Source of the DNA: Candidatus Latescibacterota bacterium
Lineage (GTDB): Bacteria > Latescibacterota > UBA2968 > UBA8231
Length of the DNA: 64,000 bases
Assembly (NCBI GenBank): GCA_021295675.1
Contig: JAGWBY010000013.1
Span: 16,663 to 80,662 of the forward strand
Reading direction: 5' to 3'
Shown here: positions 16,338 through 63,065 of the stretch, in pieces
How positions within the stretch are numbered: the stretch's first letter is position 1
How the letters are laid out: each line of letters begins with the position of its first letter
Notes under the pieces: model-generated
Databases searched by the model: none
What the model saw: the letters and a program-made list of their open reading frames with translations, nothing else
Told to the model about the DNA's origin: nothing
Program-made: the position numbers and the translations under genes

Positions 16338-17711
16338 TCACAGCACTTTGACCGGCGTCAGCCAATTGCCAGCCGCGGCAATCGCGTCTGCCGACCCCAA
16401 CACCGCGACCCGGCCCGCTGCGCCGACTTGGTCCAGCACCGCGGCAAAATCGGCAAAGTGCTCGGCCTTGGTGCCCAAGACTTGGTCGCGCATTTGCTGG
16501 CGATAGGCGTCGTCGATGCCAGTCAGGTAGCGCGTTAGCGAGGCGTAGCCCTTGGCGTCGGGGAGCTGATAGGCGTCGATGTCGCCGATGGTGCCGATGA
16601 TGGCCTTGGTCAGCTCGTCGTGGCTGATTGGATAGTCGCGCAAGAAGGCCCCGCTCTGGTCGTACACTTGTAGCGTCTCCAGCAGGTTGGGGTCTCGGTA
16701 CGACCCGTAAGCAAACACGCCGGTAAACGGGTCGAGGGAGCAAAAGGCCCCGTAGGCCCCGCCTTGCACCCGCACCCGATCCCACAGCCAAGTGGTGGCC
16801 AAGTAGCGCGTGATGACGGCCGACGATCCGTCCAATTCGTAGCCGAGCGCGAAGAGGTTGGCCGCCTTGCCCACGTAATTGACTTGGGCGGGGACGGTCA
16901 GGCCCTCGTCGGCCGCGGTCAGGTGCGGCGTCCAAGTCGCGGGCGGGTGCGCCTCTTGCGGCAACTCGCGCAACAGCGCCGCTAAGCTCTGGTCGCAGGC
17001 AGCGCGGTCGCCGCCGGCCACGGTTGCGTTGCACAGCATACCCGGCCGGTTGACCAGCAGGGCGCGGATCTGCTCCAGCCGCGCCTGCACGGCTGGCCAG
17101 TCGCCGCGGATGTCTTCGATGAGCTGCCGCAGGAAGAACAGATAGCTCAAGCCGCGCATCTGCTCTGCGAGCCAGCCAATCTCGTCAAATTGCGCGCGCA
17201 GCCGCGTTAATACCACCCGATGCCCGCCCGGCACTAGCCCGGCCTCCGCGCTGGCCCGCTCTTCTAAGGCCATCTGCAAGAAGCGCTCCTGATCGTCGAG
17301 GCGGCCCTCTAGCAGCACGTCGCGCACAATCGCCGTCAAGTCGGCGACCCGTTCGGTCATGGCCTTGCCGCGCAAAAAGAGGTACGCCGCGGCCGGCCCG
17401 CCGTCGGGGCGTGAGCCCACCAGCGAGTGGGCGCTTAGTCCACCAGTCTGGCTGCCGATCCGCTGTTGCAGTTCGACGAAGCTCATGCGCTTGGTGCCCA
17501 TCTCCAACAGGGCGCGGCCAAAGAGCGGGATATAGGGCACAAGCTCTTGGGGCAACACTCGCAGATCGCAGCCCACGTCGAGATAGGCGATGCCATTGGT
17601 GAAGAGGTCGTGGTGGAGCACCGGCACCTCAGCGATTTGGTCCTCTTGCCGAGGCACGGTCTTGATCGCTTTGTCGAGGTCGCTCAATTGCAGGCGGGGC
17701 AGCTTGGCCAT
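16338..17711 (-). CDS. M16C presequence-type protease, C-terminal part (separated by frameshift)
   Basis: This frame encodes the C-terminal ~450 residues of the PreP/Cym1-type peptidase whose N-terminal half lies at 17629-19215. It begins near MAKLPRLQLSDLDKAI, the segment that in the family follows the linker between the two halves, and includes GKAANLFALGYELDGSS, VRVQGGAYGAFC and FTGVFAYGSYRDPN, typical of the non-catalytic M16 domains that close the proteolytic chamber. It stays open to the expected end, so the gene is intact apart from the junction near 17705-17715. Confidence 0.85.
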   Translation of the reverse strand: MAKLPRLQLSDLDKAIKTVPRQEDQIAEVPVLHHDLFTNGIAYLDVGCDLRVLPQELVPYIPLFGRALLEMGTKRMSFVELQQRIGSQTGGLSAHSLVGSRPDGGPAAAYLFLRGKAMTERVADLTAIVRDVLLEGRLDDQERFLQMALEERASAEAGLVPGGHRVVLTRLRAQFDEIGWLAEQMRGLSYLFFLRQLIEDIRGDWPAVQARLEQIRALLVNRPGMLCNATVAGGDRAACDQSLAALLRELPQEAHPPATWTPHLTAADEGLTVPAQVNYVGKAANLFALGYELDGSSAVITRYLATTWLWDRVRVQGGAYGAFCSLDPFTGVFAYGSYRDPNLLETLQVYDQSGAFLRDYPISHDELTKAIIGTIGDIDAYQLPDAKGYASLTRYLTGIDDAYRQQMRDQVLGTKAEHFADFAAVLDQVGAAGRVAVLGSADAIAAAGNWLTPVKVL

Positions 17712-19215
17712 CTTGCAGGTGCCTGAGCTTTGCGGTGGACGCGACCAGTTCCTCTAAATCCGCTTGGCTCAGATGTGCTCGGGCTTCTGCTAGGCGCGTG
17801 GTCTCTTCTTCCTCCTGTCGCGTCCCTAGTTCGGCGTCGGGCTGCAGGACCACGGTCGTGCGGTGTGCGTTGTCTAAGAGGTGGCGTTGGATCAGGCCCT
17901 CTAGATAGCGGTCGTCCGCTGCCAGCTTGTCCTTGAGCGCGGCAAAGGAGTCGGCAAAGCGCAAAGGCGTGAAGGGATCGCGGTCGTAGAGCCAGTCGGT
18001 CAACAGCCGCAGCATCAGCCCCAAGCCGCGCGGAAAAGACCCGGTGTTGTTTTCGCGGAACCGGAACTCCGCAGTGTGCAACGCGGCCGCGACCATCCCT
18101 TGGTCGATCCCGCCGTCCGCCAAGTCGCTGAGGAGTTGCAAGATCAGGGCTTCGACCGCATCCGCCTCGCCCTGTTGCACGCCCTTGAGGCCCACGCTGA
18201 AGAACATCTGCGCCAACTCGACCTCTAGCCCGCTGCCGGTCAAATCCTCGCCCAACCCGGAGTCGATCAGGGCCTTGCGCAGCGGAGACCCCGGAGTGCC
18301 GAGCAGCGCGTGTTCGAGCACTTGGAGGGCGCGGCGCTCGTCGGCGTCAATCGCATCTTGCAACAGCCAAGAGAGCACGACAAAGCACTTTGGCTCTTCG
18401 ACCGCGTCTGGATCGACTGCATAGGGAAATTGCTGCCGCTTGGGCGCGGCAAAGCGCGGCTGGGTGCCGATGGTCGAGTCAACGGAATGCGCCTCGTAGG
18501 AGCTTAGATAGTCGTGCAACAGCGCGAGGCGCTGCTGGGGATCGTCGTCGCCGTAGAAGTAGATGCGGGCATTAGATGGGTGGTAAAAGTCGTCGTGGAA
18601 GCGCTTGAACTGGTCGAAGGTGAGGGCCGGGATGTGGCGCGGGTCGCCGCCGGAATCCACGCCGTAGGTGGTGTCGGGGAAGATGGATTGCTGGATGCGC
18701 TCGCCTAGGATGCTCTCGGGATCGGAATACGCGCCCTTCATTTCGTTAAATACCACGCCTTTGTAGCGCAGCGGGTCGCCGGGGTCTTCTAGCTCATAGT
18801 GCCAGCCTTCCTGTTGCAGAACTTCTGGCGTCAGCCGCGGATAGAAGACGGCGTCGAGGTACACGTCGATCAGGTTGTAGAAATCCTGCAAGTTGGTGCT
18901 GGCGACCGGATAGCAGGTTTTGTCTGGATAGGTGAAGGCGTTGAGAAAGGTGTTGAGCGAGCCTTTGATTAGTTCGACAAATGGCTCCTTGACCGGGTAT
19001 TTGCGCGAGCCGCACAGCACGGAGTGTTCGAGGATGTGGGCAATGCCGGTTGAGTCGGCCGGCGGGGTGCGGAAGTTGATGCCAAAGACCTTGTTTTCGT
19101 CGTCGTTGATCAGCGAGACGATCTCGCAGCCGGTGCGGTGCCGGTAGAGCAAGGCGCGGGTATTGAGTTCGGGAATTTCTTCGTCGCGCAGCAGTTCAAA
19201 ATCGCGGCGATCCAT
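17629..19215 (-). CDS. M16C presequence-type protease (PreP/Cym1 family), catalytic N-terminal part
   Basis: Zinc metallopeptidase of the M16C family, which degrades peptides inside a closed two-halved chamber. The inverted zinc motif HILEH is at residues 60-64, with ELIKGSLNTFLNAFTYPDKTCYPVAS downstream, as in PreP. I start at the ATG at 19215, which has GGAGACCC before it, rather than the upstream frame-extension. The frame runs through LRHLQD near 17711 and then into a wrong-frame tail ending at 17629, where the family would continue with a short linker and ALAKLPRLQLSDLD. The two halves together would make about 960 residues, the normal size. A loss of about 20 nt would explain the shift. 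No other damage is seen. Confidence 0.85.
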   Translation of the reverse strand: MDRRDFELLRDEEIPELNTRALLYRHRTGCEIVSLINDDENKVFGINFRTPPADSTGIAHILEHSVLCGSRKYPVKEPFVELIKGSLNTFLNAFTYPDKTCYPVASTNLQDFYNLIDVYLDAVFYPRLTPEVLQQEGWHYELEDPGDPLRYKGVVFNEMKGAYSDPESILGERIQQSIFPDTTYGVDSGGDPRHIPALTFDQFKRFHDDFYHPSNARIYFYGDDDPQQRLALLHDYLSSYEAHSVDSTIGTQPRFAAPKRQQFPYAVDPDAVEEPKCFVVLSWLLQDAIDADERRALQVLEHALLGTPGSPLRKALIDSGLGEDLTGSGLEVELAQMFFSVGLKGVQQGEADAVEALILQLLSDLADGGIDQGMVAAALHTAEFRFRENNTGSFPRGLGLMLRLLTDWLYDRDPFTPLRFADSFAALKDKLAADDRYLEGLIQRHLLDNAHRTTVVLQPDAELGTRQEEEETTRLAEARAHLSQADLEELVASTAKLRHLQDGQAAPPAIERPRQSDQDRASARGPNR

Positions 19216-19287
19216 TGGGTCTCCTTTGTGGTATATAGCGAAAAAGCTAGCGGGCAAACATATTGGCGGCACGGATTTTTATCAAAT

Positions 19288-19320: not shown

Positions 19321-20457
19321 TCACGGCAGGGCGATTTTGCCGAGGACGACCGGGCGCTGTGCGCGGGTGACGGCTGGGATATTGCCGGTGCGGCCCATGA
19401 AAGAGAGCGCTTCGCGCGCGTCTGGATCGACGCCCAGTTCGGCCAGCGACTGCACCGCTATATCTGGCAGCGCGTGTTGCAATCCGGCCATAATGCGCGG
19501 GTTGTGGACGCCGCCGCCGCCGACCCAGAGCTTGGCGAACTCGCCGGGGCAGAAGCGACGAATGCCCTCGGCAATGGACTGCACGGTGAAGGCGGTCAGC
19601 GTGGCGATCAGGTCGGAGTCGCTCCACGTGTCGCGCCGGAGAATTTCCGCGAGGAACGGCTCGCCAAATTCCTCGCGGCCCGTGGATTTGGGTGGCTCGC
19701 GCTGCAAGAAGCTGTGGCGCATCAGCTCCGCTAACAGGGTCTCATCGACGTGCCCCTGCGCCGCTCGCTCACCTCCTCGGTCAAATTCCTCGCACCCCTC
19801 GGTGCAGTGCGCCACCGCCGCGTCAATGAGCATGTTGCCCGGTCCTAGGTCAAAGGCTCGCACTGCGCTGGTATCGGCGTTGGCCGGCAGGGCCGTGATG
19901 TTGGCGATCCCACCGATATTGAGCAGCAGACGCCCCTCGTGACGATGGGCAAAGAGCAGGTGATCTACTAGGGGCACCAGCGGTGCGCCTTCGCCGCCGA
20001 CGGCCATGTCGGCCGTGCGAAAGTCGGCAATGGTCACTGCGCCCGTGCGCGCGGCAATGACGGCTGGCTCGCCAATCTGCAAGGTGGCCCCGCTAGCTGG
20101 CAGATGGCGCACGGTTTGCCCGTGCGAGCCGATTAGGTCGATGGATTCGGGGCCGAGCTTGGCCTGCTCGACTGTGGCTAGGGCCGCTGTTGCAAACGCC
20201 TCGCCGAGGGCAAAGTTGACCCGGCACAGCGCGCCGAGCGACGCATCCTCGGCGAAGAGGGCGAACACCTCGCGCCGCAGGTCGCTAGGCAGCGGCGTGG
20301 TATTAAAGGACAAAACTTCGTAGCGCGTGGATTCGCCACAGCCCCACAGATCAACTAGCACGGCGTCAATCCCGTCGGCTGAGGTGCCGGACATTAGCCC
20401 CACGACCCGCCGCCGCTTTTTGGCGGCCAATTCCGCCAGCCTCGACTGCGCAGGCAT
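19321..20457 (-). CDS. anmK: Anhydro-N-acetylmuramic acid kinase
   Basis: Phosphorylates and hydrolyses 1,6-anhydro-MurNAc to MurNAc-6-phosphate in cell-wall recycling (cytoplasm). Family signatures: GLMSGTSADGIDAVLVD (residues ~20-36), IGSHGQTVRH, QIGEPAVIAARTG, VADFR-like TIADFRTADMAVGGEGAPLVP, LNIGGIANIT, FDLGPGNMLID and the C-terminal RPVVLGKI. 378 residues. Near the C-terminus the family pattern F-A-x-L-A-x-x-T-L-x-G before GNxPSVTGA is shortened to SFM-GRTGNIPAV, i.e. about eight residues are missing in frame (around 19391-19400). That helix lies near the active site in the family fold, so activity is uncertain. Genes on both sides read in the same direction. Confidence 0.9.
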   Translation of the reverse strand: MPAQSRLAELAAKKRRRVVGLMSGTSADGIDAVLVDLWGCGESTRYEVLSFNTTPLPSDLRREVFALFAEDASLGALCRVNFALGEAFATAALATVEQAKLGPESIDLIGSHGQTVRHLPASGATLQIGEPAVIAARTGAVTIADFRTADMAVGGEGAPLVPLVDHLLFAHRHEGRLLLNIGGIANITALPANADTSAVRAFDLGPGNMLIDAAVAHCTEGCEEFDRGGERAAQGHVDETLLAELMRHSFLQREPPKSTGREEFGEPFLAEILRRDTWSDSDLIATLTAFTVQSIAEGIRRFCPGEFAKLWVGGGGVHNPRIMAGLQHALPDIAVQSLAELGVDPDAREALSFMGRTGNIPAVTRAQRPVVLGKIALP

Positions 20458-21717: not shown

Positions 21718-22305
21718 ATGCTCAAACTTGGCTGCATGTCCCTCAGCTACAAAGACGAATTCGCCGCGAACAAGCTCGACTTGGAGCAGTTTATTGAACG
21801 CGCCTACCAGCTCGGCCTCGACGGCATCGACATTCACACGCGCGCCTTTGCCTCGCTCGACCCGGCCTATCTGCGCAGCATTCGCATGCAGGCCTTCCGA
21901 CGCGGGCTCGCGCTTTCCTATATCGGCGTCAGTTCCAATTTCGGCAAGCCACAAGACGAGCTCGGCGCGGAAGTGGCCACCGCCAAGGAGTGGATCGACG
22001 TGGCCGCGTTCATGGGCATTCCGCTGGTGCGGGTTTTTGCCGCGTGGATTCCCGAAGGCGACCGCGAAGAGGACGTGTGGGCGCGGATGATGCCTTGCCT
22101 GGAGGAAGTGGCAGCACACGGCGAGGAAAAGGGCGTGGTGGTCGGCTTGCACAACCACAACCACGGCTGCGTCACGCGCACGGGCAAAGATGTGCGCCGC
22201 ATTATCGAGGGCGTCAATAATCCCTATTTCTCGCACATCCTCGACACGGGTCAATACGTCGGCTCGCCTGGGGCCTCGGGCCAGCAACTTTTACGGCAGC
22301 ATTGA
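21718..22305 (+). CDS. Sugar phosphate isomerase/epimerase-like TIM-barrel protein, N-terminal part
   Basis: Begins at the ATG at 21718 after a clear AAAGGAGACCTCTA ribosome-binding site. The sequence is a xylose-isomerase-like TIM barrel: LGLDGIDIHTRAFA, VRVFAAWIPEGDREEDVW, VVGLHNHNHGCV and HILDTGQYVGSPGASG, with His/Asp/Glu metal-ligand type motifs. After GASG (near 22276-22284) the frame is wrong and stops at 22305, while the correct continuation is in another frame at 22283-22534. Substrate unknown; such genes usually serve sugar or inositol catabolism. The upstream spacer (21568-21717) contains the divergent start of the D-threonine-aldolase-like gene. Confidence 0.8.
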   Translation: MLKLGCMSLSYKDEFAANKLDLEQFIERAYQLGLDGIDIHTRAFASLDPAYLRSIRMQAFRRGLALSYIGVSSNFGKPQDELGAEVATAKEWIDVAAFMGIPLVRVFAAWIPEGDREEDVWARMMPCLEEVAAHGEEKGVVVGLHNHNHGCVTRTGKDVRRIIEGVNNPYFSHILDTGQYVGSPGASGQQLLRQH

Positions 22306-28671: not shown

Positions 28672-29316
28672 ATGGCCAAAAGAAGAGCGACGGAAAAGAC
28701 TCAGCACCAACCAAGGCCTTCGCGGCAGGAGCGCAGGCAGGCGGCCCGCAGCGATGCAAAAGCTCGACAGACGGTTGCAACCGCATCGCCCCTAACAGCG
28801 GTGATCTCCTATTCGCGGCAAGACATGCTAGCCTTTCTCGCGCTCGGCTTGCTGGTGGTCGTCAGCTACCTACCGGCGATGCTGTGGGGTGGCTTTATCT
28901 GGGACGATAATTTGTGTATCAAGGTCGATCCGGTGCGGGACGTATCGGGTTTGTGGCAAATCTGGTTCTCTCCGAGTGCTATTGAAGAAGAGCATCACTA
29001 CTGGCCGCTGGTTTATACAACCTTCTGGCTGGAGCACAAGTTGTGGGGATTTGCCCCAGCGGGCTATCACATCGTCAACGTGCTGCTGCATCTAGCGAAT
29101 ACACTGCTTTTGTGGCATCTTTTGCGGCGGCTGGCCGTGCCCGGCGCGTGGGTGGTAGCCGCGGTGTTTGCCGTGCATCCGCTGCACGTGGAGTCGGTGG
29201 CTTGGATCATTGAGCGCAAGGATGTGCTTTCAGGTCGACGTGGATGCGCTTTGTGGAAAAGCCGAGTTCGCGCTGGTATGCGTGTTCGCTGGTGTTGTAT
29301 GCGGCGGGTCTTTTGA
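28672..29316 (+). CDS. TMTC-like TPR glycosyltransferase 1, N-terminal membrane part
   Basis: Begins at ATG 28672 with GAGGAG upstream, 2 nt after the preceding stop. The N-terminus is basic; the membrane domain then shows FIWDDNLCIKVDPVRDVSGLWQIW, HYWPLVYTTFWLEHKLWG and AGYHIVNVLLHLANTLLLW, then HPLHVESVAWIIERKDVLS, the signature of the TMTC/DUF1736 group (GT105-like O-mannosyltransferases in animals). Right after DVLSG (about 29231-29240) the frame is lost. The neighbouring paralog shows where the protein should continue, and the correct frame resumes at 29244. Confidence 0.8.
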   Translation: MAKRRATEKTQHQPRPSRQERRQAARSDAKARQTVATASPLTAVISYSRQDMLAFLALGLLVVVSYLPAMLWGGFIWDDNLCIKVDPVRDVSGLWQIWFSPSAIEEEHHYWPLVYTTFWLEHKLWGFAPAGYHIVNVLLHLANTLLLWHLLRRLAVPGAWVVAAVFAVHPLHVESVAWIIERKDVLSGRRGCALWKSRVRAGMRVRWCCMRRVF

Positions 29317-30730: not shown

Positions 30731-32956
30731 ATGGCCAAGAGAAGACCGACAGACAAGACGCAGCGCCAACCATCGGCCCCGTCTAAACCTACTCGGCAGG
30801 AGCGTCGGCAGGCGGCCCGTGACGACGCAAAACCCCAGCGGTCAGTTGCAACCACATCCCCCCTAATAACAGCGACATCCTATTCGCGGCAGAATGTGCT
30901 AGCCCTTCTCGCGCTTGGCTTGCTGGTGGCCGTCCCCTACCTGCCGGCAATGCTGTGGGGTGGCTTCGTCTGGGACGACAACACATACGTCAAGGTCGAT
31001 CCGGTGCGGGACGTATCGGGTCTGTGGCAAATCTGGTTTTCTCCCAGTGCGCTTGAAGAAGAAGGTCACTATTGGCCGATAACCTATACGACCTTCTGGG
31101 TGGAGCACAAACTATGGGGGTTTGCCCCGGCGGGCTATCACATCGTCAATGTGTTGCTGCACTTGGCGAATACGCTGCTGCTGTGGCATCTGATGCGGCG
31201 GTTGACGGTGCCCGGCGCGTGGATGGTGGCCGCGGTGTTTGCCGTGCATCCGCTGCACGTGGAGTCGGTGGCTTGGATCATTGAGCGCAAGGATGTGCTT
31301 TCAGGTCCGTGGATGCGCTTTGTGGAAAAGCCGAATCCGCGCTGGTATGCGTGTTCGCTGGTGTTGTATGCAACGGGTCTTTTGAGCAAGTCCATCGTGG
31401 TTACGCTGCCGGTGGCGCTTTTGATTTGGCACTGGTGGAAACAAGGCCGTGTGACCTCGACGGATCTGTGGCGGTTGGTGCCGTTTTTTGTAGTAGGGTT
31501 GGTCGTCACCGTCGGCGACTTGTCGTTTTACCGGTCTGAGACAACTACATCTTTTGACTACTCATTAGCGGAACGTGCGCTCATCGCCGCTCGCGCTTTG
31601 TGGTTTTACGCTGGTAAACTACTGTGGCCGACGAACCTGGCCGTCATCTATCCGCGTTGGGACATTCGCGTCGCCGAACCGCTAGCTTGGGGGTATTTGG
31701 TAGGTGCCGTTGCCCTAGCAGTGGCCCTCTGGCGCTTTGAGCCGCAGCTTGGGCGCGGACCGCTGGCCGGGACGTTGTTTTTTGTGATCACACTGTCGCC
31801 GACGCTCGGCTTCGTTGACTACAACTATATGTCATATGCTTTCGTCGCCGACCGCTATCAGTACCTCGCTGGTATCGGGGTCATAGCCATCATCATCGGT
31901 GCGTCAGCTTATGGTATTGGCCGCCTGTCAGGCTTGTGGCAAAAAGGCGCGCTGGGTGGTGCGGTGGTGGTGCTGATTTTGTTAGGGCTGCTGACGTGGT
32001 GGCAGGCAAGCATTTATCGGGACGACGAAACGTTCAATCGCCACATCATCGCGCTCAATCCGCAGGCGCGGAATGCCCACTACAATTTGGGCAAAGCACT
32101 GTATGAGCAGGGTCGATATGAGGAAGCGGCTGACGCATACCGCGTCGCCGCCAAACAACGCCCAAACTACGCTAAGGTACATGCCAACCTCGGCATAGTG
32201 CTCAATGAGTTGGGACGCTTCGAGGAAGCGGCGACCCACCTGCGCCGCGCCATCGCGCTCGCTCCAAAGACAAAGCACCGATACTACCATTTAGGCAACG
32301 CACTGTATGGGCAGGGTCGATATGCGGAAGCGGTCGACGCGTATCGCGTCGCCGTGGAGCAAATCCCAGATTCCTTTGAGGTACATTCCAACCTAGGTAT
32401 GGCGCTCAATAAGCTAGGGCGCTTCGAGGAGGCCGAGACCCACCTGCGCCGCGCCATCGCGCTCGACCCGCAAGACGTTGACCTTTCCCAGAAGTTGGCC
32501 GCGAAGTTGGCCGAGGTACTCACGCCACAGGGACGCTACGCAGAAGCGATTGACGTCCTAGCGCAGGCGGTGGCGTTGAACCCTGCCTCATCGCAGACAG
32601 GGGAGTTGCATTTTCTCATGGGGATGGCAGCCGAGGAGAACGGACAACCCGAGACGGCGGGATACTACATGCGCGCCTTTGAACTAGATCCCCATCATAC
32701 GAAGGCTATCCGTAGGCTAGCCCATCTGCGGTTAGAGCAGCAGCACTACGACGAGGCACTGGAACTTTTTCAGCGGCTCATCGACATCAATCCGAGCGAC
32801 GCAATAGCTCGTGGCAACATGGGTATCGTCCTCTTCTATTTGGGCAGAAGCGACGAAGCACTTCAAAGCTTCGACCAAGCGCTCTCCCTCGATCCGACCT
32901 TGGAAAGCGTGCGTGCCAACCGCGAGGCTGTGCTGGAGATTATGGAAGGAAATTAG
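30731..32956 (+). CDS. TMTC-like TPR glycosyltransferase 2
   Basis: 741 residues with the same architecture as paralog 1: basic start, membrane domain with FVWDDNTYVKVDPVRDVSG, HPLHVESVAWIIERKDVLS, ALWFYAGKLLWPTNLAVIYP and YQYLAGIGVIAI, then seven to eight TPR units. It is one continuous frame, but at the site where paralog 1 is frameshifted (31305-31309) it reads DVLSGPWMRFVEKP, whereas the family has about eight more residues (a helix of type FFWLLTLWAY) between the two halves. So this copy carries an in-frame loss at the same place. The last helix-loop may therefore be short; function is uncertain. Confidence 0.85.
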   Translation: MAKRRPTDKTQRQPSAPSKPTRQERRQAARDDAKPQRSVATTSPLITATSYSRQNVLALLALGLLVAVPYLPAMLWGGFVWDDNTYVKVDPVRDVSGLWQIWFSPSALEEEGHYWPITYTTFWVEHKLWGFAPAGYHIVNVLLHLANTLLLWHLMRRLTVPGAWMVAAVFAVHPLHVESVAWIIERKDVLSGPWMRFVEKPNPRWYACSLVLYATGLLSKSIVVTLPVALLIWHWWKQGRVTSTDLWRLVPFFVVGLVVTVGDLSFYRSETTTSFDYSLAERALIAARALWFYAGKLLWPTNLAVIYPRWDIRVAEPLAWGYLVGAVALAVALWRFEPQLGRGPLAGTLFFVITLSPTLGFVDYNYMSYAFVADRYQYLAGIGVIAIIIGASAYGIGRLSGLWQKGALGGAVVVLILLGLLTWWQASIYRDDETFNRHIIALNPQARNAHYNLGKALYEQGRYEEAADAYRVAAKQRPNYAKVHANLGIVLNELGRFEEAATHLRRAIALAPKTKHRYYHLGNALYGQGRYAEAVDAYRVAVEQIPDSFEVHSNLGMALNKLGRFEEAETHLRRAIALDPQDVDLSQKLAAKLAEVLTPQGRYAEAIDVLAQAVALNPASSQTGELHFLMGMAAEENGQPETAGYYMRAFELDPHHTKAIRRLAHLRLEQQHYDEALELFQRLIDINPSDAIARGNMGIVLFYLGRSDEALQSFDQALSLDPTLESVRANREAVLEIMEGN

Positions 32957-33078
32957 GGAATGCCCAGCTCCCGCCGGTACACCTCATCTGCGTGGGATTG
33001 CAACTGCCAGTAGGGCACCCGGATCGTCTGCATCAATTCGCCGCGCCCGCCATCGCCGTCCTCCCAGCGCACAATCCA
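32888..33078 (+). repeat. Left ~190-bp direct repeat flanking the higBA module
   Basis: Consists of the last ~65 nt of TPR glycosyltransferase 2 plus ~120 nt that copy the 3' end of the secreted-protein gene at 33780-34640 (for example CGGATCGTCTGCATCAATTC). The equivalent right copy is at 33714-33903. The part beyond 32956 has no function of its own and is an orphan gene end. Confidence 0.8.
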
Positions 33079-33079
33079 T

Positions 33080-33713: not shown

Positions 33714-33903
33714 GCTCGACCCAACCTTGGAAGACGTGCGTGCCAACCGCGAGGCTGTGCTGAAGGCGATAGAAGGGAATTAAGGAATGCCCAGCTTCCG
33801 CCGGTACACCTCATCGGCGTTAGCCTGCAACTGCCAGTAGGGCACCCGGATCGTCTGCATCAATTCGCCGCGCCCGCCATCGCCGTCCTCCCAGCGCACA
33901 ATC
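33714..33903 (+). repeat. Right ~190-bp direct repeat flanking the higBA module
   Basis: Starts with an orphan TPR-glycosyltransferase 3' end (CTCGACCCAACCTTGGAAGA, closest to paralog 1 at about 30600) that stops at TAA 33780-33782, then runs into the genuine 3' end of the secreted-protein gene. Compared with 32888-33078 it differs at scattered positions, so the duplication is not recent. It looks like the end of a third TPR gene copy. Confidence 0.8.
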
Positions 33904-45175: not shown

Positions 45176-47766
45176 GATGTCGGTGCGCCTTCTTGGTTGG
45201 GCCAGATGTCGGTGCGCAGCACTCCGTTATAGGGATTGTACCAGATGAAATGTGCGCGATTTTCCGCGCCGAAGCGCGCGCCAACCGGTGCGCTGGCCAG
45301 TGCCCAGCGCGTGCGGTTGACGACTAGGGAAATGGGCCGCTCGCTGTCTTCAAAATCGTCGATATAGCCGCGCCCCTTGGTGTTGAGATTGGGGCGGCTT
45401 TGGGCGATTTCGGCGTCAAGGGTCACTTCCGAGGGAACGGCCGTCTTGACCAGCGGCAACATATCGACGACGCGGGTGAGGATTGGCACTTCGCGCCGGG
45501 CGCGCAGGTCGAGGTTCCAGATCACCGTGCGCGTCGGCTCATTGCCCACCCGCACCCGCCGGTCGCTCGAACGCTCGTTGTTGTAGATCATGGTGCTGCC
45601 CACGCGCCCATCGCCCCCCCAGAACTCGTACTCGGTGCGCAAGCCCAACAAGGTCTTCTGCTGGCTGCCGATGTTGAAGACATCCTCGGATTCAAAGGAG
45701 ATTTCCAAGTCCGCACCGGGGTCGGCCACTTCCTGAGCGACCGAGCCGACAAACGTCACGCTGCCCGTGTAATCGACTCGGTAGTCGGTGTCTCGCGCCA
45801 GAGGGCGGCCGTTTAGCTGGACCTCCACGGTCTCGGGCCGGACGCCGCCGAAGATGCCGCCCAGCCGGATGCGCTGCTCCGAGGAGGCAGCGCGGACGAG
45901 GATTTTGTAGCGGCTGGCCTCGATCTGGGCGCGCTGTTGCTGCTCGTCGTAGATGGCGGGGACGGGTTCGTCGAGTAGGCCGCGATATTTGTCGGAGCGC
46001 GGATCAAAGGGGCGCTGATCGGGGAAAATCAAGTGCCCGCGGATGTCGTCTAGCCCTATGTAGTCGGCGTCGATGACGCGGTCGGGCGCGCTGCCGGGGT
46101 CTTTGCCGCGCTCGTCCAAACCCAAAATCTGCAAATAGGAGCGACCCTGTTGCGACAGTTGGTCCTCTTGGCCGGGCACTTCCTTGGCGATATCGACCTG
46201 CAAAGTCTTGGGATCGAAGCGGCGACCAGTGGAAAACCCAGAGGCAATGCGGTACACGTTTTTCCACTCTAGATTCCAAGTGGGAAAACCCGGGCGGGGA
46301 TTGCGGGCTTTGATCAGCTTCAGGTACAAGGAGTCGGATTCTGCGCCAGCTTTGAGCCGCGCCGTCTCCTGTTGGAGCGTGCCGTCGAAGTCCGGCGCGT
46401 TGGTTTTGAAATGCACGGCCATGGCATAGGGGCCGGATACGGGCCTGTTGAGGATGATATAACCCGCCTCGGCCACGACCGAGTAGTCGTCGTCCGGGTC
46501 GAGCCGATGCCAGGTCCCCTCCTCAAAGCAGCCGCTGTTGCTCAGGCGATTGCCCGCCGCATCAAAGCACTCGATGGTAGAGAGGGAGTCGGACGGATCG
46601 ACCCAAGCAACGCCGGGCTTGGCGAACAGTTCGGCGTCGTTCCGCGTATTGAAGTCGTTGATATAGACTTCGAGGCGGCTGATATCGACGAAGTTTTCCG
46701 GGCCAAACTGCACTCCTTCCAGCAGACTGCGGAAGTCGGCAAGGTGGGCGCGGTAGAACTCGTGCAAGAAGAAATACGTGTTGCGGATGTATTGGTAGTC
46801 TTTGAGCTGAAGCGTGTCGATGGCCGCTCCGCCCTTGAAGGTCTGGCGGTTGGACTTGCTCTTTTCGTGGCTGGCTACGGTCGTAAAGGTCAACGGCCCG
46901 ACGTGCCCTTTAGCGCGGATGCCAAAGAGGCCCTTGTTCTTCTGCCGGAAGCCGACGAAGCGCGTGTTGGGCAGCTCTAGGGTGGTATTGCCGGCCTGCA
47001 CCTCTTGGAATATGGAGTCTTCCTCGCCTTCGTAGTCGAGCTTGATCTGGTTGGATAGCTGATCGCCCAAACCGGAGCCAAAGGCCGAGCCTAAATTTTG
47101 GGTGTCTTGGTCGATGCGGATGTTGATCAGATCGCCGACTTTGCCTTCCACCGTGAAATCGGATTCCTGTTCGATGCCCAGCGAGGGGAACTTGGAACTG
47201 CGGCCAAACGAGGTCTGCACCTCGCCGTCGGTCCACTCGCTCTTGCCAGAAATGATAATGGTGCGCGAACCATTGAGCGCGAGGCTGGGGCCTTCGTCGC
47301 CGATAAAGCGCCGCAGGGGCTTGGGCGCGGAAAAGGGCACCGTCCACTCAAAGCGGCTGCCCCGGCGCTGGCGCTGCTCGGAAGCTGTGCTGCGAAAGTC
47401 GCGGCGGATTTGCTGGTGCCAAAGTTGTCGGTGCCTAGCTTGGTATTCCATGCGGAGATAGTCGTCTATATTCACGGCGACCTTTGGTCCCTCGGCGAAT
47501 CCACTGACGCGGCGGCCGTAGTGGGCCATTCCCAAGGAGTCCACTGCGGCTTGGTACGAGATCGGCGCGCGGTCGGGGACGGGCAAGAGCGGCTGGCCAG
47601 CCCCAAAGGCAGTTTGGCTAGGGACGACAAAGCGCTGGGAAAGCGGGCCGTATAGCGGCTCGAAGTGCAGCTTAGGCTCGGCGCGTACCACTACCGCGAG
47701 CAAGCAAACACACAGCCACGAGGAAAACGCTTGGCGGGAAAAGCGGAGAAACACCTCTAAATTCAC
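45166..47766 (-). CDS. sprA: SprA-type T9SS outer-membrane translocon, N-terminal part
   Basis: 866 residues from a GTG at 47766; signal-like hydrophobic segment (SWLCVCLLAVVVRAEP) near residue 20. SprA features: EQESDFTVEGKVGDLINIRIDQDTQ, LSNQIKLDYEGEEDSIFQEVQAGNTTLELPNT, FGIRAKGHVGPLTFTTVASHEKSKSNRQTFKGG, LYLKLIKARN and IWYNPYNGVLRTDIWPNQE. The last ten codons are out of frame, because the 14-nt sequence AGATGTCGGTGCGC (plus strand) occurs at 45175-45188 and again at 45204-45217; a duplication or deletion here causes the shift. Joined length ~2140 residues, near that of known SprA proteins. Confidence 0.88.
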   Translation of the reverse strand: MNLEVFLRFSRQAFSSWLCVCLLAVVVRAEPKLHFEPLYGPLSQRFVVPSQTAFGAGQPLLPVPDRAPISYQAAVDSLGMAHYGRRVSGFAEGPKVAVNIDDYLRMEYQARHRQLWHQQIRRDFRSTASEQRQRRGSRFEWTVPFSAPKPLRRFIGDEGPSLALNGSRTIIISGKSEWTDGEVQTSFGRSSKFPSLGIEQESDFTVEGKVGDLINIRIDQDTQNLGSAFGSGLGDQLSNQIKLDYEGEEDSIFQEVQAGNTTLELPNTRFVGFRQKNKGLFGIRAKGHVGPLTFTTVASHEKSKSNRQTFKGGAAIDTLQLKDYQYIRNTYFFLHEFYRAHLADFRSLLEGVQFGPENFVDISRLEVYINDFNTRNDAELFAKPGVAWVDPSDSLSTIECFDAAGNRLSNSGCFEEGTWHRLDPDDDYSVVAEAGYIILNRPVSGPYAMAVHFKTNAPDFDGTLQQETARLKAGAESDSLYLKLIKARNPRPGFPTWNLEWKNVYRIASGFSTGRRFDPKTLQVDIAKEVPGQEDQLSQQGRSYLQILGLDERGKDPGSAPDRVIDADYIGLDDIRGHLIFPDQRPFDPRSDKYRGLLDEPVPAIYDEQQQRAQIEASRYKILVRAASSEQRIRLGGIFGGVRPETVEVQLNGRPLARDTDYRVDYTGSVTFVGSVAQEVADPGADLEISFESEDVFNIGSQQKTLLGLRTEYEFWGGDGRVGSTMIYNNERSSDRRVRVGNEPTRTVIWNLDLRARREVPILTRVVDMLPLVKTAVPSEVTLDAEIAQSRPNLNTKGRGYIDDFEDSERPISLVVNRTRWALASAPVGARFGAENRAHFIWYNPYNGVLRTDIWPNQEGAPTSWR

Positions 47767-48244: not shown

Positions 48245-49528
48245 ATGACGACCCTATCCCGCTATGTGCTCAAAGAGCACGGTTGGCCCTTTGCGCTCGG
48301 CTTTGCGCTGATCCTCTTCATCCTGCTGATCGACGTCGTATTGCAGACGATGGACCAAGTGTTGAGCAAGGGGCTAACCCTGCTGGCGGCACTCCAACTT
48401 TTGCTCTTTAACTTGGCTTGGATCGTGGCGCTGGCCGTGCCTATGGCCGTGCTCATCGCCGTGCTCATGGCCTTTGCTCGCCTCGCCGCCGACGGGGAAA
48501 TCATTGCGGCCAAAGCCTGCGGGGTGAGCTTTTGGCTGCTCCTACGGCCGGTGCTGATAGCCGCTTTTCTGCTCACCCTGCTGATGGTCCTTTTTAACGA
48601 CCAGATCCTCCCGGACTGGAACCACCAAGCCCGCGTCCTGTCGTCGAGCTTGCAACGGACGAAAGCGGCTTTGGTGCTGCGGGAAAAGGAAGGGGTCTTC
48701 ATACCCGACTTGGGCGATTATCACTTACTGATCCGCCAGATTGACCCGGAGACTAACGAACTGGCTGGCATCGCACTCTACGACGCCTCGCGCCCCGGGC
48801 CGCCGGTGATTGTCCACGCCCCTAGGGGACGCCTCGCGCTGTTAGGCGATGGGGCTTACATCCGCTTGGAGTTGGAGGAAGGCCATGTCCAGCGCGTCGA
48901 AGCCGGCCAAGAGGAGCGCTTTTTCTACGGCATTTTCGCCCGCCAAGTGCTGCACATCAAGGACGAGCGCCGCCGCTACGAGCACCGCCCTTCGTCCTAC
49001 CGCAGCGACCGCGAGCTAGACATCGCGGCTATGCACCGCTTGGTGCTAGAGCGCCGCCGCGAGCAGGAGCGCGCCTACGGACGCCTCGATTCGATTGCCG
49101 CGCGCTACCTCGAACTGCACCAAAGCCAGCTTGCCGACTCCACGGCCAGTGAGCTAGAGCGAGAAAGGGAACAGGCGGCCGAGGCCCTGCGCCGACAGTG
49201 GCGGCACATAGACCGCCGCGCGGGGCGGGTCGAGATTCACAAGAAGCTATCCATCCCGGCCGCTTGCTTGGTCTTCGCGCTGGTCGGTGCCCCATTGGGT
49301 GCGCTGATTCGCCGGCGCGGTGCCGCCGTCTCCGTCGGCATCAGCCTGTTCTTTTTTTGGATCTACTGGATGTTCCTCATCGGCGGCGAGGAGCTGGCCG
49401 ACCGAGGCTATATCCCGCCGCCTCTGGCGATGTGGGCACCCAATGGGGTTTTCGCCCTCGTCGGATGGGGGCTGTTGCGGGTGGTCGCGTACGACCGCGC
49501 TGGACGCCGAGGGACGAAAGAGACCTGA
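48245..49528 (+). CDS. lptF: LPS export permease LptF
   Basis: 427 residues, YjgP/YjgQ family: part of the LptBFG ABC transporter that extracts LPS from the inner membrane and drives it to the outer membrane. Three N-terminal helices (LGFALILFILLIDVVLQT..., AWIVALAVPMAVLIAVLMAFARLAADGEIIAAKACGVSF), a periplasmic beta-jellyroll domain (~130-250), a long charged helical insertion (ERRREQERAYGRL...), then RVEIHKKLSIPAACLVFALVGAPLGALIRRRG and further helices. No clear ribosome-binding site precedes the ATG. Directly followed by lptG with 1 nt spacing. Shows the cell has an LPS outer membrane. Confidence 0.92.
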   Translation: MTTLSRYVLKEHGWPFALGFALILFILLIDVVLQTMDQVLSKGLTLLAALQLLLFNLAWIVALAVPMAVLIAVLMAFARLAADGEIIAAKACGVSFWLLLRPVLIAAFLLTLLMVLFNDQILPDWNHQARVLSSSLQRTKAALVLREKEGVFIPDLGDYHLLIRQIDPETNELAGIALYDASRPGPPVIVHAPRGRLALLGDGAYIRLELEEGHVQRVEAGQEERFFYGIFARQVLHIKDERRRYEHRPSSYRSDRELDIAAMHRLVLERRREQERAYGRLDSIAARYLELHQSQLADSTASELEREREQAAEALRRQWRHIDRRAGRVEIHKKLSIPAACLVFALVGAPLGALIRRRGAAVSVGISLFFFWIYWMFLIGGEELADRGYIPPPLAMWAPNGVFALVGWGLLRVVAYDRAGRRGTKET

Positions 49529-53740: not shown

Positions 53741-55699
53741 ATGTCGCGCCCGGTTTACATCCTGGTGGCGCTGCTCCTGTGTTCTTTTGCACTGGACGCC
53801 GCCGAGCGCAGGAGTCCTATCGTCCACGTGGTCAAACGAGGGGATACTCTGTCTGAGATTGCTGCGCGCTACCGAGTTTCACAGAAGCAAATCCAGCGCT
53901 GGAACAAGCTCCGCAGCAATAGGATATATGCTGGCCAGAGTCTCAAAGTTAGTCCGCCAGTGCGAAGTGGCGATTGGTATCGCGTCCGGCGCGGCGACAC
54001 GCTGTCGAAAATAGCTCGGCAGTTCGCTGTCCCGGTCTATAAGCTCAAGGCGCTCAACCGCCTCGATGGAAATGTCATCCACGTCGGGCAGAAGCTCTAC
54101 TTGCAAACGGCCGTCCCCACTCGGAGTGCCTCAGCCGACGACAACGACGAAGAGCCGAGCGAGTACACGGTTCGCCGGGGCGACACCCTGTCGAAAATCG
54201 CCCTGCGATTTGACGTGGGCTTGGGTTTTTTGCGCCAACTCAACAAGCTCAAAAGCGACCTCATTCGGCCCGGGCAAAAGCTCCGCCTGCGCGCTTCGCG
54301 GTTAGAGGAAGCCGTCCACGTGGTGAAAGAGGGCGAAACCCTGACTGAGACGGTCAGCCAGTTGCAGCGCCTCAATGCCCTCGTCGGAGATCGGATTCTC
54401 ATCGGCCAGAAGCTCCGCCTCAAAGATGCGGCGAGCACGGTACACATCGTGGAGCGCGGGGACGCGCTGTGGGAAATCGCCCGCGCGTACGGAGTCAGCG
54501 TCTATCGCCTCAAGATGCTCAACGGCCTCCGGTCAAACCGCATCTACCCCGGCCAGGAACTCAAGCTCTACTCCGACCGGAAGCTCGAACCGAGTGCTGC
54601 GCCCGCGAGCGGTCCGCGGCTGGCCACATACGTGGTGAAGCGGGGCGATTACCTCGCGCAGATCGCCCGCCTGCACCAGATGAGCGTGGCTGAAATCACC
54701 CGCCTCAACAACCTAAAGAAAAACGCCGTCATCCACCCAGGCGACCGGCTCAAGGTGCGGCCAATGCGCTGGGTAGAACTGTCTGAGATCAATTGGGACG
54801 ACCTGCAGATCCGCCGCGCTGACACGCCGAAAATTGCATCCGACAATGGCCCGTACTACTTCTCTCGGCCCCGCAATAAGCGCCAGCCGAGCAAGAAATA
54901 TTACGAAGGCCATCCAAGCTCGCCGCGTCAGACGTATCGCCAAGCAGGCAAGGTCGGGAGCATGGGGCGCTTGAGTTCTCAGTTGGAAGGCTGGCACATC
55001 GTCCTCGACCCGGGCCACGGCGGGCTGGACCCGGGCGCATTAGTTTCTGCTCGCGACGGCAAAGGCAATAGACTCTATGTAGTAGAGGACGAGTACGTCT
55101 TCGATATCGCGCTGCGGGTCTATGTCTTGGCGCGCTTGCACGGGGCCCAAGTCACCATGACCTTACTCAGCCCCAACCACCTAATCCGCCAAAGCGAGCC
55201 GCCGACCCAGACCTTTGTCCATGAAAAAAACGAAGTGTACAACTGGGCCGCTTACAACCAGACCAACAAGCTCAGCGCTTGGCCGCACGGTGGCAATCTT
55301 TCGACTCGCGTGCGCATTGCCCGCCAGGCCTTTGCCAAAGCTCCAAGGGGACGGCGCATCTTTCTCTCCCTTCACGCCGATAGCGCCCCCAAGGCCCCAG
55401 AAGCACCGCTGGTTCTATACTACAAAAGCAAGAGTGGGCGCGTCGATCGCGTCTCGCGCCAATTTGCTCGCTCCCTGCTCCCGGCATTGGGGGCTGGTGC
55501 CCACGTCCGAGGGCAGGGGCTAGGGGTTTTGCGCAACAACCCGGCTGACGTCAAGGTCCTCATCGAAGTGCGCAACATGGCGTACCGGGATCACGTTTGG
55601 GCCTTGCGCTTTGAGGATCTACGCCACCGCGATGCCGAAAAAGTGGTGCGCGGCCTCCTCGACCACGCCGCAAGTTCCACGCTCCGCGCTGGCTACTAA
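53741..55699 (+). CDS. LysM-repeat N-acetylmuramoyl-L-alanine amidase
   Basis: 652 residues with a signal peptide (SRPVYILVALLLCSFALDA). Six LysM peptidoglycan-binding modules (VKRGDTLSEIAARYRVS, VRRGDTLSKIARQFAVP, ... ) occupy residues ~25-345. The Amidase_3 catalytic domain follows: VLDPGHGGLDPGA (~423, first Zn His), VEDEYVFDIALRVYVLARLHG (Glu), SLHADSAPK (His) and LIEVRNM (catalytic Glu). It cleaves peptide side chains from glycan, probably for cell separation. LysM 4 is shortened: VKEGETLTE runs directly into TVSQLQRLN, whereas its sisters have seven more residues (IARQFAV type), so about 21 nt are missing in frame near 54349. Confidence 0.92.
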   Translation: MSRPVYILVALLLCSFALDAAERRSPIVHVVKRGDTLSEIAARYRVSQKQIQRWNKLRSNRIYAGQSLKVSPPVRSGDWYRVRRGDTLSKIARQFAVPVYKLKALNRLDGNVIHVGQKLYLQTAVPTRSASADDNDEEPSEYTVRRGDTLSKIALRFDVGLGFLRQLNKLKSDLIRPGQKLRLRASRLEEAVHVVKEGETLTETVSQLQRLNALVGDRILIGQKLRLKDAASTVHIVERGDALWEIARAYGVSVYRLKMLNGLRSNRIYPGQELKLYSDRKLEPSAAPASGPRLATYVVKRGDYLAQIARLHQMSVAEITRLNNLKKNAVIHPGDRLKVRPMRWVELSEINWDDLQIRRADTPKIASDNGPYYFSRPRNKRQPSKKYYEGHPSSPRQTYRQAGKVGSMGRLSSQLEGWHIVLDPGHGGLDPGALVSARDGKGNRLYVVEDEYVFDIALRVYVLARLHGAQVTMTLLSPNHLIRQSEPPTQTFVHEKNEVYNWAAYNQTNKLSAWPHGGNLSTRVRIARQAFAKAPRGRRIFLSLHADSAPKAPEAPLVLYYKSKSGRVDRVSRQFARSLLPALGAGAHVRGQGLGVLRNNPADVKVLIEVRNMAYRDHVWALRFEDLRHRDAEKVVRGLLDHAASSTLRAGY

Positions 55700-55972: not shown

Positions 55973-56223
55973 CGCTCTGTTCTCATAGCACTTCCTGCGG
56001 GGTTAAGAGTATCTGAGATGCGACAAATAAAGAATTGAGGTGCTTAACTTCGTCTAAAGGCGTTCCTTCCTTTCTATGAACAAAAGGGTAGTGTTTACCG
56101 TCTAGCTATCTATAATGGTAAGAAATTTTCGCACAAAATTTTCAAAAAAATAACGCGCGCGACAAAAAAATAACCGCGACACCTAATGGCGCGGCGGCTA
56201 TACTATCCGTAACTCGTTTTTTT
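55973..56223. other. AT-rich gene-free interval
   Basis: About 250 nt of AT-rich sequence with no ORF; it contains runs such as AAATTTTCAAAAAAATAA and a GCGCGCG block, but no convincing promoter or hairpin. It separates the small minus-strand ORF from the Gfo/Idh/MocA gene end. Confidence 0.5.
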
Positions 56224-57822: not shown

Positions 57823-58055
57823 ACGAGCACGCGCTCAATGGCCGCATCTACTTCCTCGCGCCGCCCCACATCCGCCTGTAGTTTCAACACCGCTTGGCCG
57901 TGGTCTGCCAAAAGTGTGGCTGTCTCGTCTATCTCTGATCCAGTGCGGGCCAAAATCGCCACGTGCGCCCCTTCTCGCGCCAAGGCCAAGGCAATGGCCC
58001 GGCCAATGCCGCGCCCGCCGCCGGTCACTAGGCAAAGCCTGCCTATCAGCTCCAT
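57786..58055 (-). CDS. Short-chain dehydrogenase/reductase, N-terminal part
   Basis: Starts at the ATG at 58055 (GGAG 5 nt upstream). The NAD(P)-binding TGGGRGIGRAIALALAREGAHVAIL and DVGRREEVDAAIER are typical. After IERVL the frame is lost near 57822-57834; family members have about seven more residues (xxFGRxD) before VLVNNAG, so about 19 nt appear missing. Confidence 0.85.
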   Translation of the reverse strand: MELIGRLCLVTGGGRGIGRAIALALAREGAHVAILARTGSEIDETATLLADHGQAVLKLQADVGRREEVDAAIERVLVCWSTTREFRGL

Positions 58056-58186
58056 ATCGCGCTCCTTCATTGCTTGAGCAAATATGCGGTGTTGGCTTGT
58101 TCTTGCCAAAGGCCAACAGGCCCGTCGTTGACCTAGCGTACCATTCATCCTAAATTAGTGTGCATACATCTTAGAGAGCCTATTCG

Positions 58187-59635: not shown

Positions 59636-59640
59636 GTGCC

Positions 59641-60216
59641 ATGCTTTCTCTAGACGAAAAACTAATGCATCTCGAAGAAATTCTGCGTCCCATGAGGCAG
59701 GTGCTGGTCGGCTATTCAGGTGGAGTCGATAGTGCGACACTGGCGGTGGCGGCCCAGCGGGTCTTGGGCGAAGGAGCCATCTGCGTCACCGCGGACTCTG
59801 AGAGCTATGCCACCGGCGAGTTGGAGAAGGCTACCGAAATCACCCGGGAGTTCGGCATCCGCCACGAGGTAGTCAAGACTCGCGAGCTGGACAACCCCGA
59901 CTACGCCAAAAACGCGCCCAACCGCTGCTACTACTGCAAGCAAGAGCTTTTCGTCCACATGGAGCAGCTCGCGCGTACGCTCAACGTCCATTACATCCTC
60001 TATGGCCAAAACGCCGACGACATCGGCGATTTCCGCCCCGGGGCTGCGGCTGCTCGCGAGCGCGGCGTACACGCGCCCTTAGCCGAGGCGGGCCTGACCA
60101 AAGACGACGTGCGCGCCCTAGCCAAGCGCTGGGGGCTGACGGTATGGGACCGCCCGGCCATGGCCTTACGGCACGCCAGTTACGGCAGAGGGCCTGCGCC
60201 AAATCGACCGCGCTGA
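59641..60216 (+). CDS. larE: LarE-type sulfur transferase, N-terminal PP-loop part
   Basis: LarE sulfurises a pyridine cofactor precursor to make the nickel-pincer cofactor of lactate racemase-like enzymes. The PP-loop SGGVDSATLAVAA (residues ~24-36), TADSESYATGELEKATEI, NRCYYCKQELF and YGQNADDIGDFRPG are all present. After WDRPAMA (about 60164-60168) the conserved C-L-x-S-R-x-P segment is absent, and the frame shifts, ending at 60216. In LarE of lactobacilli the donor cysteine lies in this segment, so loss of ~20 nt would remove it. Confidence 0.85.
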   Translation: MLSLDEKLMHLEEILRPMRQVLVGYSGGVDSATLAVAAQRVLGEGAICVTADSESYATGELEKATEITREFGIRHEVVKTRELDNPDYAKNAPNRCYYCKQELFVHMEQLARTLNVHYILYGQNADDIGDFRPGAAAARERGVHAPLAEAGLTKDDVRALAKRWGLTVWDRPAMALRHASYGRGPAPNRPR

Positions 60217-61200: not shown

Positions 61201-61227
61201 TCCGGCTCTTACCTTATCAAACGAAAC

Positions 61228-61301
61228 GGGGGCGTAGTTCAGTTGGTTAGAACGTCGGCCTGTCACGCCGAAGGTCGCGAGTTCGAGTCTCGTCGTCCCC
61301 G
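61228..61301 (+). tRNA. tRNA-Asp (anticodon GTC)
   Basis: Cloverleaf of 74 nt: acceptor stem GGGGGCG/CGTCCCC, D stem GTTC/GAAC, anticodon stem TCGGC/GCCGA with loop CTGTCAC (anticodon GTC at 61262-61264), T stem GCGAG/CTCGT with TTCGAGT loop, discriminator G. The CCA end is not encoded. Confidence 0.97.
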
Positions 61302-61367
61302 CCTTTGCGCGGTTGAGGAGCTTTTCTTTTGTCAATTTCTACTTCTCACATGCGAGAAAGGTAAAAA

Positions 61368-61943
61368 ATGCAAGATCGCATCCGCGAAATCCTAAGCTGG
61401 TATGGCAGCGACAACCCCGGCACCTTGACCAACTTGGCGCGTCTGCTCAACCACGGCGCGCTCGGCGGCACGGGCAAGCTAGTCATTCTACCCGTAGATC
61501 AGGGCGTCGAGCACGGCCCCGGACGCAGCTTCGCCCCCAACCCGCCCGCGTACGATCCGCGCTATCACTTTGAGCTGGCCATAGACGCTGGCCTCAGTGC
61601 ATACGCCGCCCCGCTCGGGTTCCTCGAAGCTGGCGCGCGCGACTACGCCGGCGATCTGCCGCTGATCCTCAAACTCAACAACCGCGAAAACCTCCACTCC
61701 GACGCAGACCCCACTCAGTCGCTCACCGGCTCCATCGCCGCTGCCCTGCGCTTGGGTTGCGTTGGCATCGGCTACACGGTCTATCCGGGTTCGGCCCTGC
61801 GGCAGGAGATGTACGAAAAGCTGCAAGCCTTGGCCGAAGAGGCCAAGCGGTACGGTTTGGTGGTGGTGGTCTGGTCTTATCCGCGCGGCACGGACTTGAG
61901 CAAGGACGGAGAAACCGCGCCGCTCAAATCGCCGCCCAGTTAG
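61368..61943 (+). CDS. Class I fructose-bisphosphate aldolase, N-terminal part
   Basis: Starts at ATG 61368 with GAAAGG upstream. A TIM-barrel aldolase of the archaeal/DhnA-like class I type: VILPVDQGVEHGPGRSFAPNP, DAGLSAYAAPLGFLEAGA, LILKLNNRENLHS, LGCVGIGYTVYPGS and VVVVWSYPRG. After GETA (about 61916-61922) the frame changes; the family continues LDVxAYAAQIAA. About 19 nt would be missing. Confidence 0.88.
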   Translation: MQDRIREILSWYGSDNPGTLTNLARLLNHGALGGTGKLVILPVDQGVEHGPGRSFAPNPPAYDPRYHFELAIDAGLSAYAAPLGFLEAGARDYAGDLPLILKLNNRENLHSDADPTQSLTGSIAAALRLGCVGIGYTVYPGSALRQEMYEKLQALAEEAKRYGLVVVVWSYPRGTDLSKDGETAPLKSPPS

Positions 61944-62263: not shown

Positions 62264-62290
62264 CGCATCTCCAAATACGCAGAAATTCTC

Positions 62291-62890
62291 ATGTACATCA
62301 CCGTCGCTACGTACAAAGAACAGGGCTTCCTGATCGTCGAGAACTTCCTTACTAAAGACGAGCAGCAAGCCGCGCTCGATGGCTTCTTCACCCATTTCGC
62401 CCCGCCCTATGACCAGTATCTAGCCAACGACCGGCGCAACGACACCCCGCAGCAAATACTCTTCCCTTGGGATCACTCCGGCCTCAATCGCGTCACCGTC
62501 CATCCCGATCTGATCGACGCGGCCGAGCGCGTCTTAGGCACGCGCGAGATCCGCCTCTGCGAGGGGCACTTGGGAATGAAATACGCCGGCGAGGAATACG
62601 GAACCAATTTTCACATCGACTACGGCAACAACACACTGGGGCCGATCATCGAGCCAGACGATTTTATGAACTTGGTCTGTTTCTACTGCTTCGACGATGT
62701 GGAGGAAGGCATGGCCCCGATCCGCATGGTGCCCAATGGCTGCTCCGACGCGGAAGCCGTGCCGATGATCGTCCCCGGCGGCTCGGTGTGCCTCTACAGC
62801 GTCTTCACCCGCCACGCTGCGCCCGGTCATGTGGGTGGGCTTTACCCGCAAGGATCGCCCTTGGGACGGCGGTCGCACCTTCACGTATAA
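62291..62890 (+). CDS. Phytanoyl-CoA dioxygenase family protein, N-terminal part
   Basis: Fe(II)/2-oxoglutarate-dependent dioxygenase (PhyH-like). ATG 62291. Features: YKEQGFLIVENFLTKDEQQAAL, CEGHLGMKYAGEEYGTNFHIDYGNNTLG (iron-binding H-x-D at about residues 106-108), VPGGSVCLYSVFTRHAA (distal His). After HAA (62816-62823) the frame is lost, where relatives have a short segment before RPVMW. Substrate unknown. Confidence 0.85.
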   Translation: MYITVATYKEQGFLIVENFLTKDEQQAALDGFFTHFAPPYDQYLANDRRNDTPQQILFPWDHSGLNRVTVHPDLIDAAERVLGTREIRLCEGHLGMKYAGEEYGTNFHIDYGNNTLGPIIEPDDFMNLVCFYCFDDVEEGMAPIRMVPNGCSDAEAVPMIVPGGSVCLYSVFTRHAAPGHVGGLYPQGSPLGRRSHLHV

Positions 62891-63065
62891 AAGCGGTGCC
62901 CAAGGTGCCGCCATGAATCGCTTCATGGCCGAAGCCACCCCGCGCCAGCGCGAACTGCTGGGCTTCCCGCCGCCGGGCGACGCGCTGTGGACGGAAGAAT
63001 TTATCGCGGGGATGGCGACGCGGTATCCGGGATTCGACGCGGAACCGTATTACGCGGCTAAATAA
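62829..63065 (+). CDS. Phytanoyl-CoA dioxygenase family protein, C-terminal part (frameshifted)
   Basis: MWVGFTRKDRPWDGGRTFTYKSG, followed by ATPRQRELLGFPPPGDALWTEE and a normal end, completes the PhyH-like protein at 62291. RPVMW just upstream is in this frame, so the real junction lies before 62829. Confidence 0.82.
   Translation: MWVGFTRKDRPWDGGRTFTYKSGAQGAAMNRFMAEATPRQRELLGFPPPGDALWTEEFIAGMATRYPGFDAEPYYAAK

Follow-up and report, generated by a model that had tools for sequence, protein, structure and literature searches.

The question raised by this 64,000-nucleotide (nt) stretch of Candidatus Latescibacterota bacterium (GenBank assembly GCA_021295675.1, contig JAGWBY010000013.1, positions 16,663 to 80,662 of the forward strand; hereafter the window) is why blocks of about 20 nt are missing from the conserved cores of at least a dozen otherwise clean genes. 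The original prediction, made from the sequence alone, listed 12 such junctions and considered contig stitching that removes a k-mer-sized overlap, another assembly artefact, or an unknown deletion or recoding process. Comparison with related genomes, together with the placement of exact repeats, makes it very probable that the missing blocks of ~22 nt are an assembly artefact from scaffold joining. The affected genes are presumably intact in the organism, and their broken state is almost certainly not a real biological feature.

Parts of the window have syntenic counterparts in eight genomes (G001–G005, G007, G009 and G010), with ~85–95% nucleotide identity, and the same eight ranked best among 25 genomes of the family in a search with one 3.4-kilobase (kb) piece. 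A search with a piece of SprA returned ten loci, all in metagenome bins of Latescibacterota/Latescibacteria or Gemmatimonadota/Gemmatimonadetes, the best segment showing 95% protein identity. Gaps between the window and the relatives were tabulated from alignments of at least 300 nt and at least 84% identity, with deletions of at least 9 nt being scored. This table flags 16 window-private deletions, 15 with six to eight relatives covering the site and one (9167) with a single relative. Each of the 15 missing blocks is carried by all relatives that cover its site (6 of 6 to 8 of 8), as expected if independent assemblies retain bases lost at a join, and relatives naturally lacking the segments, which the original prediction had named as grounds for refutation, were not seen. 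Deletion lengths are consistent across relatives except at 19399, 45185, 54351 and 62817, where in each case the alignment of one relative splits the gap. With the junctions of the paralogous genes TPR-GT1 and TPR-GT2, which were measured separately, and leaving out the candidate at 9167, the total is 17 deletions of 15–29 nt (mean 22.2, standard deviation 3.5; Table 1). All 12 junctions named at the outset are deletions relative to these genomes, the SprA junction lying at ~45189 rather than 45175, and seven of the eight size estimates were exact, the exception being FeoB, at 23 nt instead of 20. The junctions then left unsized measure 23 nt (PreP), 23 nt (isomerase), 22 nt (SprA) and 29 nt (PhyH), and five deletions had been missed (33905, 49229, 54948, 55976 and 61304).

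The deletions of 15–29 nt form a distinct size class. Across the 36,796 bases where at least four relatives cover the window, to which this survey was restricted, 17 deletions are private to the window, 15 of them 15–29 nt and two 3 nt long, alongside five private insertions of 1, 1, 2, 6 and 9 nt. The narrow size class and the absence of other decay, both claimed from the sequence, are thereby borne out, and the mixture of indels, stops and decay that marks ordinary pseudogenisation was rejected on the same counts. The relatives' own losses of 15–29 nt number nine (four in G002, two each in G003 and G004, one in G001 and none in G005, G007, G009 or G010), that is 0–4 per relative versus 15 in the window, and seven of the nine are multiples of three. 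Of the 15 window deletions that fall in clear protein genes, 6 keep the frame, which is chance level and agrees with the earlier statement that frame is not under selection.

The effect on coding was assessed by taking, at each site, the longest stop-to-stop frame that spans it, in up to 3 kb of flank on either side. At PreP, FeoB, SprA, the short-chain dehydrogenase (SDR), LarE, the aldolase and PhyH the window has a shorter such frame than the relatives; the G010 frames at PreP and FeoB are shorter than those of the other relatives, presumably because the G010 pieces end there. For the isomerase, four of six relatives exceed the window in the length of the plus-strand frame, and in G003 and G004 the longest frame lies on the opposite strand. 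Among the best 120 of 7865 matches in a FeoB protein search, the top match is 95% identical and 710 amino acids long, from a database clustered at 90% that therefore cannot reveal same-species copies.

The evidence for a join comes from exact repeats. Searched on both strands, the window contains just two exact repeats above 65 nt; each is exactly 79 nt long, and both terminate at deletion edges. One pair links TPR-GT1 and TPR-GT2, whose deletions of 22 and 24 nt fall at one and the same point of their common stretch, and the other belongs to a duplication around a HigA-type antitoxin gene. Both 79-nt runs start at a difference between the repeat copies. In five syntenic stretches of relatives (60–80 kb), exact repeats of 93 and 72 nt occur in G003 and one of 105 nt in G004, and the remaining three contain none longer than 63 nt.

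Since the 79-nt runs begin at copy differences, the other junctions were predicted to lie 79 nt past a strain difference, so that offset −80 should be variable among relatives; this offset was stated from the repeat pairs before testing. The test set comprised 14 of the 15 non-paralog junctions; 33905, from which the idea had come, was excluded. On the initial junction positions, 8 of 14 varied at −80, with a mean strain difference of 0.27. Ambiguous junctions were then set at the placement that most relatives allow (rightmost on ties), after which 9 of 14 varied at −80, versus 26% of background positions, and the mean strain difference was 0.32 against a background of 0.083 (p = 2.7e-4). Under this rule, offset −80 ranks first of the 601 offsets from −300 to +300. 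Variation is depleted at offsets −79 to −1 (0.047, a level reached by none of 3000 random site sets), and offset +80 is ordinary (0.056). At two junctions, the exact left run to one relative is precisely 79 nt (Table 1). An earlier test made without the −80 prediction had already given left exact runs to relatives averaging 60.6 nt versus 32.6 nt in the background (p = 0.00075), with ordinary right runs (32.9 versus 33.4 nt), left and right being those of the plus strand regardless of gene strand. A fixed, k-related distance to the last differing base is thus found both at the two repeat pairs (79 nt) and in the peak at −80, and this peak with its 79 depleted bases is the signature left by de Bruijn contig ends that overlap by 79 nt.

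How such ends could lose bases may be pictured as follows. The window would be a scaffold of short reads from a sample containing related strains, and its de Bruijn graph, with a 79-nt contig-end overlap, would break wherever a stretch is common to paralogs or strains. The left contig would then end 79 nt past the last distinguishing base, as seen at the two repeat pairs and, statistically, elsewhere. A scaffolder would join the next contig by an estimated, too large negative distance and trim its start unchecked, the over-trim removing 15–29 real bases and leaving no N; because the bases are missing to the right of an intact left contig, it is the second contig that would have been trimmed too far. 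A near-constant insert-size bias of about −22 nt would give the narrow size class. For the TPR genes, if the missing bases are identical, the common stretch would be ~130 nt, the true contig overlap ~28 nt, and ~50 and 52 nt would have been removed. Contig stitching was therefore the right kind of explanation, the junctions lying 79 nt from a repeat or strain difference, but the loss is not k-mer-sized: the overlap is 79 nt, and a variable 15–29 nt comes on top of it.

IDBA-UD trims by negative distance when scaffolding, and 79 is in the default k list of MEGAHIT. An overlap of 79 nt corresponds to k = 80 in IDBA-UD or to k = 79 elsewhere (MEGAHIT, SOAPdenovo), and we infer that IDBA-UD scaffolding with k = 80 is the best-fitting tool. 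In its passages on contig ends, the COBRA paper gives an overlap of maxK−1 for IDBA_UD and of maxK for MEGAHIT and metaSPAdes, includes k = 79 among its MEGAHIT k lists, and recommends IDBA_UD contigs over scaffolds because of scaffolding errors (PMC10914622). De Bruijn assembly has a published bias towards variants at position k counted from the ends of contigs; in the example of SOAPdenovo2 with K = 69 the variant peak falls at 70 (PMC5368935), and K = 79 would accordingly place it at 80. Chen et al., where they discuss such errors, suspect that local assembly errors are prominent in IDBA-UD (PMC7111523), and minor local scaffolding errors are mentioned in a description of an IDBA-UD assembly (PMC5476646).

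Several points weigh against scaffold joining as described here. Five of the 14 junctions (19399, 22286, 36754, 57824 and 61918) show no variation at −80 among the compared relatives, so that for these the model must assume a co-occurring strain outside the compared set. The placement rule for ambiguous junctions was fixed after the first test and raised the result from 0.27 to 0.32 and from 8 to 9 of 14, and leftmost placement puts −80 second of 601. Offset −82 is also high (0.25), and +79 reaches 0.14. Without the advance prediction, the peak would have to be judged against the best of 100 offsets, where 3% of random site sets reach 0.321. As to the tool, PMC7111523, in its remarks on overlaps, assigns the overlap lengths of IDBA-UD and metaSPAdes the opposite way to COBRA. 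A virome comparison, in the results it gives on errors, finds SPAdes, metaSPAdes and IDBA-UD to be similar in error rate, with short indels making up nearly all errors (PMC5332604), so that IDBA-UD is not singled out. In those parts of the assembly literature that deal with contig ends and joins, as consulted here, no description was found of exactly such over-trimming without N.

Among the alternatives, the one that survives best, although we consider it very unlikely, is another assembly, merging or polishing error that likewise depends on shared k-mers. Any graph tool working with 79/80-mers and an unchecked join would yield the same edges, but a pure de Bruijn walk cannot create a junction k-mer absent from the reads, which by this reasoning makes a join step necessary, and from a long-read consensus one would expect single-base indels; the window has two that are private to it. 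Less probable still are real deletions, in which a lineage process, either pseudogenisation or a programmed system, would excise ~22 nt and inactivate many genes. Their clean breakpoints, narrow size class and restriction to the window genome would suit such a process. However, we know of no biological reason for the 79-nt spacing to repeat ends and strain differences. The unknown deletion or recoding process of the original prediction is not supported. Fifteen deletions per 36.8 kb in the absence of other decay would affect a great many genes genome-wide, both TPR paralogs are affected at one place, and no hairpin bias is seen: individual sites resembled palindromes, yet when 15 sites were folded as they stand in the relatives, the mean z was 0.03 (range −1.69 to +1.70). 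We give yet lower credence to an in vivo process that removes ~22 nt at sites 79 nt away from where a homologous copy last differs, such as inter-strain recombination excising a block of near-fixed size. Purposeful or random editing with deletions of 15–29 nt has a negligible probability, since random placement, however well it suits a size range resembling a random draw and the absence of frame preference, would not twice match exact 79-nt repeat ends or give the −80 peak.

Two further properties of the sites were considered. Replication slippage between direct repeats was rejected, as the placement ambiguity (microhomology) of 0–3 nt per alignment at 14 sites carries no slippage signature. 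GC content at the sites (0.50–0.70 versus a background of 0.60–0.63) shows no trend by eye.

Table 1 Missing blocks and exact repeats in the window (window positions; relatives given as those carrying the segment out of those covering the site).
Feature	Position	Gene or place	Strand	Observation
23 nt missing	17710..17711	PreP-like M16 peptidase	minus	8/8 relatives; M16 domains matched
24 nt missing, frame kept	19398..19399	AnmK		7/7 relatives; 13 nt versus G002 (gap split); AnmK family match
23 nt missing	22285..22286	Xylose-isomerase-like TIM barrel protein		6/6 relatives
79-nt exact repeat	29158..29236	GT1 copy	+	Stops at GT1 deletion edge
22 nt missing	29236..29237	TPR-GT1		Site shown in 5/10 alignment rows; exact 79-nt repeat ends there
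79-nt exact repeat	31229..31307	GT2 copy	+	Stops at GT2 deletion edge
24 nt missing	31307..31308	TPR-GT2, same place as GT1		Site shown in 5/10 alignment rows; exact 79-nt repeat ends there
79-nt exact repeat	32999..33077	First copy of duplication around HigA-type antitoxin gene	+	End (33077) may be a further join
79-nt exact repeat	33826..33904	Second copy of duplication around HigA-type antitoxin gene	+	Stops at left edge of 18-nt deletion
18 nt missing, frame kept	33904..33905	Unnamed gene 33780-34868	minus	7/7 relatives; gene without family match
23 nt missing	36753..36754	FeoB		8/8 relatives; feoB family match; full-length relatives 710-724 amino acids
22 nt missing	45189..45190	SprA/Sov		7/7 relatives (gap split in G003); TIGR04189
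15 nt missing, frame kept	49228..49229	LptF/LptG-family gene		6/6 relatives
21 nt missing, frame kept	54350..54351	LysM amidase		7/7 relatives
24 nt missing, frame kept	54947..54948	LysM amidase, second join		7/7 relatives; exact left run to G003 = 79 nt
28 nt missing	55975..55976	Short frame, 102-149 codons in relatives	minus	7/7 relatives
19 nt missing	57823..57824	SDR		8/8 relatives
20 nt missing	60166..60167	LarE		8/8 relatives; TIGR00268
24-25 nt missing (by relative)	61303..61304	Directly 3' of tRNA-Asp		8/8 relatives; exact left run to G004 = 79 nt
19 nt missing	61917..61918	Class I aldolase		8/8 relatives
29 nt missing	62820..62821	PhyH-like protein (name from the original prediction; no NCBIfam match)		8/8 relatives

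Eight of the 17 junctions are packed into ~8.5 kb (54351–62821), a distribution that would fit more strain-shared stretches there. The duplication at 32878–33904 consists of a 200-nt direct repeat (90%) formed by the ends of two neighbouring genes, and between its copies lie a HigA-family antitoxin gene (33395–33694; TIGR02607) and a preceding small open reading frame (ORF; 33104–33385), which has no match in NCBIfam and is toxin-like by position only. The middle of the duplication has no match in the relatives' syntenic stretches, to which the search was confined. Both repeat copies end 79 nt beyond one and the same difference, the first of them at 33077, and 33077–33078 may mark another join. 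At 9166–9167, a possible 24-nt deletion lies in one of several tandem paralogs and is seen against one relative only, 83% identical locally. Separately, 5152–16044 holds a row of five ORFs of 680–752 amino acids that cross-match in the relatives, and the one tested (7392–9434) carries a C-terminal redoxin/AhpC domain.

Biologically the joins mean nothing, but they have practical consequences: they break genes without leaving Ns, so that gene callers see truncated FeoB, SprA, LarE and others, and the affected genes should be treated as intact unless reads show otherwise. Such joins can be detected without reads, from a peak of variation at −k from indel edges in comparison with relatives.

Two known assembly behaviours resemble the pattern described here. 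As set out in the account of the position-k bias (PMC5368935), differences between repeat copies likewise cluster exactly k bases from contig ends and scaffolding leaves the bias in place, but the consequence there is false variant calls, whereas here bases are lost at joins. In the passages on local and scaffolding errors of IDBA-UD (PMC7111523; PMC10914622), joins likewise corrupt genes, and the end overlap of maxK−1 gives 79 nt for k = 80; those errors, however, consist of unsupported sequence and of Ns inserted despite an overlap, in contrast to the over-trimming without Ns that would account for the joins in this window.

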